Below are positions 11,351 through 14,541 of a stretch of DNA of 24,246 nt, piece after piece. Source of the stretch: a virus; IMG/VR virus record IMGVR_UViG_3300025000_000414, positions 1 to 24,246 of that record, one strand, 5' to 3'. Numbering within the stretch: the stretch's first letter is position 1; each line of letters opens with the position of its first letter. The notes under the pieces are model-generated. The model was given only the letters and a program-made list of their open reading frames with translations, was not told the origin of the DNA and searched no databases. Made by a program: the position numbers and the translations under genes.

Positions 11351-12019
11351 TTACCTAAGAGCTAATCCACGAGTATAAGATGGAAGTGTTAATTCAAGTG
11401 TTCTCATAGCACTAAGAAAACTGTTTTTAAATCTAGTAGTATTTGGTGTTTCACCTTCAAGACCATCTTCAATATGTTCCCAGGCTTTCCAAGCTGCAAA
11501 ATTCACCAGCAAAGATATATGTAAATGCGATGGAATTCCATCTGGAACATCAGCATCAAGAGACATATCAACAGGTTTTCTATAATAATGGAGTGTTAAT
11601 GTCTCAGCACTTGTAGGAATACCTTGATAATATAATTTTCTTCCATGTTCAATAGATTCAGAAATTCTTCCTGCCTTATTCAGCAGTGGATAAGTTTCTG
11701 CAAACTCAATAAACGAATGTGCTATATCAATCTCACTTCCAGTAGGTGAAACAACTAATTGTAAATCTCGATGAAAATTAGTTGGCATAGCTACAAAAGC
11801 AGCTGTAGTTGAAGTTGTTACAGTTCCTATTGTAAATAATTCCGGTAATGGTGGAGTAAGTGCATTCGGTATTGGATTCTCAATTCCATCTAATAACGAA
11901 AGCATTCCGCCTGCAATCTCAGAAACTCCTTGATTAATAAAACCACCTAAAGAAGCAGTCAAAGAAAGATCAGCAACAAGAACATCAGCTTTACTTTTTA
12001 ATTCACTAAAAGTAGTCAT
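11351..12019 (-). CDS. Probable head-tail (portal-tail) adaptor protein, 222 aa
   Basis: The layout fits phage adaptor proteins. A helical N-terminus ends with INQGVSEIAGGML. A beta segment about residues 63-100 follows (PTNFHRDLQLVV). Next comes the typical LYYQGIPTSAETLTLHYYRKP strand pair, then a helix-rich C-terminus with WKAWEHIEDG. Such proteins bind the portal ring and carry the tail hub. The gene lies just before the propeller hub gene and after a small zinc-binding gene often found with it in podovirus-like genomes. AAGGAA lies 7 nt before the ATG. The portal itself is not in the window, presumably to the right. Confidence 0.6.
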   Translation of the reverse strand: MTTFSELKSKADVLVADLSLTASLGGFINQGVSEIAGGMLSLLDGIENPIPNALTPPLPELFTIGTVTTSTTAAFVAMPTNFHRDLQLVVSPTGSEIDIAHSFIEFAETYPLLNKAGRISESIEHGRKLYYQGIPTSAETLTLHYYRKPVDMSLDADVPDGIPSHLHISLLVNFAAWKAWEHIEDGLEGETPNTTRFKNSFLSAMRTLELTLPSYTRGLALR

Positions 12020-12027
12020 ATAATTCC

Positions 12028-12267
12028 TTAAAGATCATCTGGTGTAATTGGAGTAGTTATAAAATTTTCCTCTGGTTCCGGCCTATGCACAGGAACACTT
12101 TGCTTCTCACCCAATGGTTTTGGATCTGTATAATGTGGATGTTTTTCTTCCCAACATGTATCAGCACAAACAAACAACTTATCCCAAGTCATTCTGCATT
12201 CAGATGCATAACGCTGAAATCCACATTGATCACAAGTTACTAGGTAGTCTCCAGGTTTATAAGACAT
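12028..12267 (-). CDS. Small zinc-binding protein with recoded 5' end, 79 aa
   Basis: Cysteines at 12, 15, 24, 34 and 38 (CDQC; ASEC; CADTC) suggest a zinc-binding fold. The protein is acidic and proline-rich at its C-terminus. Small proteins of this type (GDYLV-C-x2-C-GF-x-RYASECRMTWD) recur in podovirus-like tail regions with unknown role. The start lies inside the end of the HNH gene (11-nt overlap), with AAAAGG upstream. The first 14 codons are a diverged, mostly synonymous second copy of the fragment at 12894-12941 on the far side of the endonuclease. The present 5' end therefore probably arrived with the endonuclease. Confidence 0.8.
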   Translation of the reverse strand: MSYKPGDYLVTCDQCGFQRYASECRMTWDKLFVCADTCWEEKHPHYTDPKPLGEKQSVPVHRPEPEENFITTPITPDDL

Positions 12268-12790
12268 AATTTTTCCTTTTTAAATATAAATAAGCTGAAC
12301 CCATATTAGATAAACTATGACAGCCTAGCCAACATAAGCGAACTTCTTCCAAATACCTAGCAAAAACAGCATCATCAAAGTTTTTATATATACCAAGATA
12401 TTTTGTTTTTCCATCTATACAAATGTTAGCTGACCATTTTTGGGTTTGTTTATGTAAAAAAACACCTTTAACTCCTGATACATTATTACATGACATACCA
12501 CAATTTCTAGCATTGCCTTGCTTATTTATTTCTCTTAAATTTTCAATTCGATTATCTTGCTTATTACCATTAATATGATCTAATCGTTTTGGTAAATAAC
12601 CATAATAATAAAGCCAAATAAGTTGGTGTGCATAATAATGTTTTTTATCAACATTAATTTGTCGATAACCATGTGCATAATTACCAGCAATAGAACCTAC
12701 CTGTATTCTATTACTCGTACGAATTTTCCAAATAAGATTTTTTCCATCATAAAAAAATAATTCTTTTAATCTTTCTTGACTTAATTCCAT
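12257..12790 (-). CDS. HNH homing endonuclease with AP2 DNA-binding domain, 177 aa
   Basis: Residues about 45-95 form an HNH nuclease of the HNH_3 type: H55 (AHQLIW), the metal-site motif DHINGN (71-76), and N80/N84 in DNRIENLRE. Residues about 103-150 are an AP2-like DNA-binding domain (SGVKGVFLHKQTQKW; YLGIYKNFDDAVFAR). This order is usual for free-standing phage homing endonucleases, which cut an allele lacking the gene and spread by repair. The start is ATG 12790 with AAGGAG 6 nt upstream; an earlier in-frame ATG at 12817 has no such site. The gene is visibly more AT-rich than its neighbours. Its last codons overlap the start of the zinc-binding gene, so both are translated together. All catalytic positions appear intact. 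Confidence 0.9.
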   Translation of the reverse strand: MELSQERLKELFFYDGKNLIWKIRTSNRIQVGSIAGNYAHGYRQINVDKKHYYAHQLIWLYYYGYLPKRLDHINGNKQDNRIENLREINKQGNARNCGMSCNNVSGVKGVFLHKQTQKWSANICIDGKTKYLGIYKNFDDAVFARYLEEVRLCWLGCHSLSNMGSAYLYLKRKNYVL

Positions 12791-12822
12791 AATTAACTCC
12801 TTAATTATGATACTCATTAAAA

Positions 12823-12878
12823 TATGCGGAAAGCAAATGAGTAGTTTGCCTTATCGGAGATATCATCCTATCCGCATA
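12823..12878 (-). promoter_or_regulatory. Stem-loop in leader of the homing endonuclease
   Basis: The arms TATGCGGA (12823-12830) and TCCGCATA (12871-12878) form an 8-bp perfect outer stem. Inside it a second hairpin, GCAAA (12833-12837) with TTTGC (12845-12849), can form. There is no T-run, so it is not an intrinsic terminator. It lies in the untranslated leader about 33 nt upstream of the endonuclease start. It may control endonuclease translation or mark an end of the inserted element. Confidence 0.4.
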
Positions 12879-12893
12879 ATCCTATACACTATT

Positions 12894-12941
12894 TTAAAAT
12901 TGATCACAGATTACTAAATAATCACCAGGTCTATATGACAT
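12894..12941 (-). pseudogene. Broken 5' fragment of the zinc-binding gene (15 codons)
   Basis: ATG 12941 with GAAGG upstream opens a frame encoding MSYRPGDYLVICDQF and then TAA. The first 14 codons match those of the intact gene at 12267 (MSYKPGDYLVTCDQ) with two amino-acid changes and five synonymous changes. After CAA-T the similarity ends abruptly. It follows the lysozyme stop directly, where the original gene should begin, so it is most simply the stump left by the endonuclease insertion. Confidence 0.8.
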
Positions 12942-12953
12942 TATTTACCTTCT

Positions 12954-13424
12954 TTATGATAGCCATAATTGAATTTCTTTTTCTCGTCGATTAACTAGAC
13001 CTTGAACTACCTTGCCGTTGTCATATTTCCAGCGCCGCAGTTGGCTTGGCACCACTCCATACTGGTCCTGATTGAGAACTCGAAGCAGGGTAGAATCTAG
13101 AAAGCTTTCGTCGCCGACATTGAAAGTGAAGCTCACCAGTGTGTTGAACTGATTCTGCGTGAGTGGAACCTTGACTCCACGATTCACTACCTTAACCACC
13201 GCTCGAATATCTTGTTGACAGAGATTTAATACTTGTGCATCAGTTAATCCGCGTCTATATTCTACAACAGCTTTATCAATTACGAGCTTTCCTGATCTAC
13301 GCTCAGAGAGTGTCAACAAATGACCAATGCCAATAGTAGGCTCTCCACCTGAATCAAGATAAACTTGTTTATAACTTCCTTCAACATGTTTCAAAAAATC
13401 ATAAAATTTGGCATCAACTTTCAT
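12954..13424 (-). CDS. Endolysin, glycoside hydrolase family 24 lysozyme, 156 aa
   Basis: The GH24 catalytic triad is present with exact T4-lysozyme spacing: Glu15 (KHVEGSY), Asp24 (VYLDSGG) and Thr30 (EPTIGIGH), i.e. E-x8-D-x5-T. The family motif LTQNQFNTLVSFTFNVG is at 88-104 and the C-terminal RRxxEIQLW at 146-154. It should cleave the glycan strands of peptidoglycan at lysis. There is no signal peptide or SAR segment, so it needs a holin; the nearest candidate is at 15761-15997. The start is set at ATG 13424, which overlaps the peptidase stop (ATGA) and has GGAAGG upstream. An upstream in-frame start at 13451 lies inside the peptidase gene. Confidence 0.92.
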   Translation of the reverse strand: MKVDAKFYDFLKHVEGSYKQVYLDSGGEPTIGIGHLLTLSERRSGKLVIDKAVVEYRRGLTDAQVLNLCQQDIRAVVKVVNRGVKVPLTQNQFNTLVSFTFNVGDESFLDSTLLRVLNQDQYGVVPSQLRRWKYDNGKVVQGLVNRREKEIQLWLS

Positions 13425-14160: not shown

Positions 14161-14541
14161 TCAGCTGCCTGTAATGGCCTTTTTGACCGTATCCGTAATC
14201 TTCGCCCAATACCCATATATCGTGAGGCCTGAGACGCCCGTTAACACCAGTACCAAAAAAAATCTCCTGACTACAGTCCTGTTGTCTGCCATTACCACCG
14301 TAAATTTATTGAAAGCTGATATCATGTTCTTTAGGTCGTCTGGATTGATTCCTTTAAAAGCAGAAACCATATTATTTAGATCTTCGGTAGAGATCCTACC
14401 AAACCGACAATCCTCTGCTTCATGCCTACGGCTTCTATGTGTAGCTTCGATTATGGCTGCAATAGCATCAAGATCTTCATTGGTCAGATTGTTCCTTCTT
14501 CGTGGCCTCAACTCTTCATACGCCTCACCTGATTCCGTCAT
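14161..14541 (-). CDS. Single-pass membrane protein in lysis region, 126 aa
   Basis: The first 90 residues are polar and helical, with a short internal repeat, STEDLNNMVSAF then NPDDLKNMISAF. Residues 91-112 form one strong transmembrane helix (FFLVLVLTGVSGLTIYGYW) flanked by Arg-Arg, then a short basic/polar tail. This resembles small phage membrane proteins near lysis genes (holin, antiholin or spanin-like), but none can be named. ATG 14541 is preferred because AAAGGA lies 7 nt upstream. ATG 14559 overlaps the previous stop (TAATG) but has a poorer site. Confidence 0.7.
   Translation of the reverse strand: MTESGEAYEELRPRRRNNLTNEDLDAIAAIIEATHRSRRHEAEDCRFGRISTEDLNNMVSAFKGINPDDLKNMISAFNKFTVVMADNRTVVRRFFLVLVLTGVSGLTIYGYWAKITDTVKKAITGS

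Follow-up and report, generated by a model that had tools for sequence, protein, structure and literature searches.

Endonuclease insertions are usually held to spare the host only when they lie in an intron, in an intein or between genes. In the WHO elements of the yeasts Torulaspora and Lachancea, the 3′ end of FBA1 is replaced by a resistant one, and the old end is left as a fragment (PMC7282813). Mobile ORFs of mitochondria bring foreign gene ends to atp6 in Allomyces and to atp6, atp9, cox2 and nad3 in Glomus (PMC3630166). In phage T4, the 50-nt bypass of gene 60 occurs together with a homing endonuclease and is thought to protect from cleavage, according to a review (PMC5009743). In the intronless homing of T-even phages (SegF, SegG and MobE), a free-standing endonuclease is accompanied by a divergent neighbouring allele in the carrier, and co-conversion takes place (PMC2988022). 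Furthermore, a synthetic Cas9 system has been engineered in flies as a home-and-rescue gene drive (PMC7968924).

The phage locus described here probably carries a mobile HNH cassette, which inserted after codon 14 of a small gene and replaced the native 5′ end with a foreign one. It would then be a natural home-and-rescue element. The yeast work is cited in a paper that surveyed the nuclease genes located where phage genomes exchange segments, and a search of its text for the relevant terms returned no such cassette (PMC10448857). No phage precedent was found in the open-access literature, and this absence is provisional.

Organization of the interrupted gene

The window, i.e. the whole stretch of 24,246 nucleotides analysed here, comes from the genome of a tailed phage. 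Along its minus strand, lysozyme is followed by a stump of 42 nt, a spacer of 109 nt, the HNH-AP2 gene, the complete zinc-binding-type gene (79 aa) and a gene for an SU10-like adaptor. The intact HNH-AP2 gene lies in an insertion of 674 bp, which begins after codon 14 of the small zinc-binding-type gene. The features are as follows.

12954–13424, minus strand: phage lysozyme gene, flanking the cassette on its left (Phage_lysozyme, 1.6e-35)
12900–12941, minus strand: stump, native codons 1–14 of the zinc-binding-type gene; what is left is a dead-end ORF of 15 aa, MSYRPGDYLVICDQF
12791–12899, minus strand: spacer of 109 nt, present only in the window and L104/L006/L080
12788–12809, minus strand: inverted repeat of 9 bp; in the centroid fold, its loop contains GGAG and its stem the HNH start codon
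12257–12790, minus strand: HNH-AP2 homing-type endonuclease gene, intact, 177 aa, 27.5% GC (44% for the window)
12274–12278, minus strand: AAGGA, Shine-Dalgarno-like site of the restored gene, within the HNH coding end (read from the sequence)
12226–12267, minus strand: foreign (divergent) copy of codons 1–14, which restores the interrupted gene; found only in carriers
12028–12267, minus strand: restored zinc-binding-type gene, 79 aa, with CxxC pairs

The stump (12941–12900) encodes MSYRPGDYLVICDQ, and the start of the restored gene (12267–12226) encodes MSYKPGDYLVTCDQ. As the first-pass annotation had described, the two differ at eight of 42 bases, which corresponds to five synonymous codons and the changes R/K and I/T. 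The common end point of the similarity was also seen, and identity stops one base beyond codon 14 in both. The copy agrees with the stump at 34/42 bases, and no other stretch of the window does better than 24/42. Thus, the likeness between stump and copy is not due to chance. The final 9–10 bases before the junction, including the palindrome TGATCA, are the same in both. The earlier suggestion that TGATCA belongs to the target fails as far as discrimination is concerned, because the palindrome is kept in both copies; discrimination in the window case would need codons 2–11.

The HNH protein matches HNH_3 of Pfam at 2.6e-17 and phrog_99 (HNH endonuclease) of PHROG at 4.5e-59. The residues D71, H72, N74 and N84, which are invariant in the HNH family, are all retained. 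The AP2 match is weak (E 0.0043, 17.8 bits, under the cut-off of 33.3). The occurrence of the HNH gene is sporadic: 17 distinct alleles of the zinc gene are empty, i.e. cassette-free, with empty sites in L013, L014, L017 and L027, for example. For the restored zinc-binding-type protein, no family match was obtained in Pfam, PHROG or NCBIfam. A related HNH gene, 44% identical, is located upstream of terminase genes in L107 (356–868), and the same contig has a relative of the zinc gene (L050).

The spacer had been called structured. The 109-nt sequence is, however, no more stable than its shuffles (z = −0.49), and its overall fold is ordinary; what stands of the claim is the 9-bp inverted repeat, which encloses the HNH ribosome-binding site and start codon. 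This repeat is a possible hairpin for translational control, as judged from the predicted fold. The HNH ORF and the start of the restored gene overlap by 11 nt. Judged by this overlap, translational coupling of the two is likely, and the restored start has its own AAGGA. A scan for promoters and terminators gave nothing above chance. The adaptor gene downstream has a short form of 222 aa, carried by the window (11351–12019), and a form of about 300 aa in relatives (L104 2945–3859), which has an extra N-terminal part.

Gene starts in relatives with and without the cassette

When the zinc protein was used as a query, 78 loci were obtained. Relatives that have the zinc gene immediately after lysozyme, without HNH, were looked for, and many of the loci are of this kind (e.g. 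L013, L014, L017, L021, L025 and L027); the allele comparison was made with the 17 distinct empty alleles. Over the first 42 nt, the stump differs from them by 1–5 mismatches (mean 1.6) and the new start by 5–9 (mean 6.9), and no empty allele matches the copy. Among the empty alleles themselves, the first 42 nt vary by 2.8% per site versus 9.8% for the remainder. Codons 15–79 of the window gene are 9.0% from the empty alleles, inside their own spread of 9.8%. Four states are private to the window gene, at positions 6, 18, 21 and 24, all of which lie within the first 24 nt (codons 2–8).

According to codon-degenerate scans, the start of the copy is restricted to cassette carriers, which are three contigs: the window, L104 (=L006) and L105 (=L007). 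Besides these, the scans returned the alleles of L003, L004 and L011, which are similar in part. With the exhaustive pattern PGDYLVTCDQ, only the carriers and the L003 type were obtained. Since the empty alleles resemble the stump and the copy's start is confined to carriers, it is the stump that represents the native end, and the copy has come in from outside. The claim that the insertion supplies a different 5′ end and keeps the host gene complete agrees with these comparisons, in which the empty alleles match the stump and never the copy. None of the contrary outcomes named beforehand occurred. No uninterrupted relative among those found has a start of the 12267 type. Contig L037 (1278–2797), considered as a genome with two full zinc genes, has an inverted arrangement with different alleles and is probably a chimeric assembly.

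The donor allele of the new 5′ end was not found in viral contigs, no DNA match was found in plasmids, and the sole match to the protein in phage records is 41% identical. The closest natural 42-mer in the wider family is five bases off the copy (L003 type). In the cassette-free L003, L004 and L011, codons 9–12 (CTAGTAACTTGT, I11T) are copy-like and codons 1–8 are native-like. The L003-type allele could have been left by past exchange with a carrier, or it could be related to the donor.

In L001, L005, L008 and L015, genes dissimilar to the window's lysis gene (12954–13424) take its place upstream of the zinc gene. Exchange seems to have a boundary at the conserved 5′ end of the latter.

L104 shares the stump, the spacer and the new start with the window, its stump being identical, and its HNH gene is shorter by 277 bp. 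This deletion (L104 2436–2455) takes out the HNH domain and causes a frameshift; the stump and the new start are retained. Judging from its sequence, L104 is a decayed element which still rescues the host gene. From 14470 to 12221 of the window, the two contigs show one difference (13937), besides the deletion and the edge base 14470. Differences resume at 12220 and are dense from 12127, and they are also present upstream of 14470. The right edge of the near-identical tract is located 6–100 bp beyond the copied codons. Downstream of the tract, the window resembles the empty L001/L003 backbone, about 83–98% per 100-nt tile over the adaptor region; L104 is about 78% there and then unrelated. As one near-identical tract is present in two backbones, the cassette unit moved between phages. 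A right edge at this distance is the pattern expected of endonuclease-driven repair, but lysis-module exchange could yield the same. Because the shared tract reaches about 1.5 kb leftwards, ordinary lysis-module exchange could have moved the cassette.

Recurrence in other genes and rival explanations

The survey covered 215 distinct HNH places related to the window HNH in viral contigs, phage records and bacterial genomes, and asked whether the start of the downstream gene is repeated upstream of the HNH match. Three of the 215 places were above the null, namely the window cassette, L228 and L128, with scores of 63–81 versus a null maximum of 49; this maximum is the value after setting aside three very high pairs involving L251, assumed to be homologous loci. 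The stump–HNH–gene architecture is rare among relatives of the window HNH family, and the replaced end is the 5′ end in all three cases. No WHO-like 3′ version appeared in a general flank comparison of the surveyed HNH places. Among the other leads, L285 is really two tandem HNH genes, and L132, L274 and L385 are low-complexity matches.

In L128 (1944–3182), a stump of the gene for the annealing protein Sak is fused in frame to an HNH-AP2 gene, which is followed by a full Sak gene. Sak is a single-strand annealing protein (PF06378, 3.7e-44). L286, L287 and L288 have the L128 neighbours and lack the HNH gene. Against these three, respectively, the L128 stump shows 5, 3 and 6 mismatches over 51 nt and the copy shows 22, 20 and 19. 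The 5′ part of the copy (75 nt) has 34, 32 and 26 mismatches; the next 120 nt have 5, 4 and 16. The new end is about 44% unlike the closest native alleles, with 10 amino acids as well as synonymous sites changed. The switch from foreign to native is near nucleotide 85 and the insertion point is at about nucleotide 57. Thus, the foreign segment extends across the insertion point. At the level of sequence comparison, the three empty relatives confirm a foreign 5′ end on a native body in L128, a case known from one contig.

In L228 (1373–2252), a 26-codon stump is followed by the HNH gene and a complete 83-aa gene, whose start is overlapped by the HNH stop. Over 25 aligned codons, stump and copy are identical at 5, synonymous at 11 and different at 9. 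A close empty relative of L228 was looked for and not found.

These cases bear on how the arrangement arose. Passive mosaicism would assume a donor in which the HNH gene lay just upstream of a zinc gene and entered by illegitimate or short-homology recombination in the course of lysis-module exchange. The donor 5′ end would have hitch-hiked, the HNH target would lie elsewhere, and the divergence would have no role in immunity. This course of events is unlikely, even though the lysis gene that precedes the zinc gene is frequently exchanged, many free-standing phage endonucleases cut hundreds of base pairs or more from their own gene (PMC2988022), and the HNH reading frame already terminates inside the new start. 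Insertion in a gene start with a foreign end on the native body recurs in unrelated genes, which random exchange does not favour, and L128 has foreign sequence on either side of its insertion point. Duplication in place is far less probable still. A 42-bp tandem copy would have been born at the HNH insertion, and the functional copy would then have drifted or been selected to cut recombination between the repeats. The equal length and end point of both copies fit such an origin, as do the mostly synonymous changes. However, nearly all the changes are in the functional copy, and the unconstrained stump has one common change; the carriers are otherwise almost identical. In L128, moreover, the copy differs from the closest native alleles at 32–34 of 75 positions, versus 4–5 of 120 in the gene body.

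The position inside a reading frame is intron-like, and a self-splicing intron containing the HNH gene was also considered. It is hardly credible: an Rfam search gave no match at E≤1, neither for the spacer nor for a group I ribozyme core, the non-coding part is about 109 nt, and no choice of ends in the sequence yields the group I combination of a U-ending exon and a G-ending intron. Furthermore, the downstream copy is equipped with a start and a ribosome-binding site of its own. As every sequence used here is a metagenomic contig, an assembly artefact has to be weighed, and its probability is negligible, because contigs from other samples have the same junctions, L104 that of the stump and both L104 and L105 that of the copy.

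Proposed mechanism and comparison with known systems

The preferred reading is insertion of a mobile cassette with replacement of the native 5′ end. The cassette unit would consist of the HNH-AP2 gene and, after it, a foreign, divergent 5′ end of this host gene, which brings a ribosome-binding site of its own. Its insertion would displace the native 5′ end, which is left as the stump, and join the foreign 5′ end to the native body, leaving the host gene complete. The endonuclease would cut the native allele near codon 14, where the stump ends. Then repair from a carrier would copy the stump side, the endonuclease and the new 5′ end. The changed bases would prevent recutting of the restored gene, and they would also reduce recombination between the two copies. 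It is plausible that the foreign 5′ end makes the carrier allele immune to the endonuclease. The first-pass annotation had spoken of a recoded 5′ end. This end does differ from the native one, but given the divergence of about 44% and the 10 amino-acid changes in L128, it is better read as a foreign donor allele. The apparent recoding thus most probably reflects the 5′ end of a foreign donor; the WHO elements and the atp6 elements of fungal mitochondria present a like situation at the 3′ end.

We lean slightly towards a wider generalization. Tailed phages would have a recurrent class of self-contained home-and-rescue elements, in which HNH genes invade 5′ ends and supply foreign, cleavage-resistant 5′ ends; this class would have evolved independently, as a mirror image of the yeast WHO elements. 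Replacement of the host gene's own 5′ end would then be a further route to harmlessness and immunity for endonuclease insertions. It would also account for chimeric gene starts and for sharp boundaries of recombination in phages.

The WHO elements are alike in combining an endonuclease gene with a host-gene end, in keeping the displaced native end as a fragment (the stumps of the window and L128 match the empty alleles) and in having degenerate copies. A chimeric host gene of the WHO type, with a foreign end supplied by the element, is present in the window and in L128. The WHO elements differ in that they act at the 3′ end of FBA1 with an intein-like endonuclease carrying a zinc finger, whereas an HNH-AP2 protein (HNH_3) is found here at the 5′ end in phages. 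Resistance of the rebuilt allele has been tested for WHO and would be expected for the phage cassette. The mitochondrial mobile ORFs likewise place an endonuclease ORF within a gene and supply a replacement end which is foreign and mostly synonymous, and the displaced native end matches relatives, but the carboxy-terminal end is concerned, the endonucleases are of the LAGLIDADG or GIY-YIG type, and the hosts are fungal mitochondria.

The T4 gene 60 bypass system, whose homing endonuclease we take to be MobA, is similar in that a phage endonuclease locus carries sequence keeping the host gene working. There, however, the insert is translationally bypassed and the gene is split, and no gene end is replaced. 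The intronless homing of T-even phages also places a free-standing endonuclease beside a divergent allele; its endonuclease gene is intergenic, with a distant target and with neither stump nor replacement start, whereas the insertion here is within a gene start. The engineered home-and-rescue drive homes into a needed gene while providing a working replacement, as the cassette would do, and differs in being a synthetic Cas9 system in flies. The cassette would be a small, testable, natural counterpart of such engineered drives.
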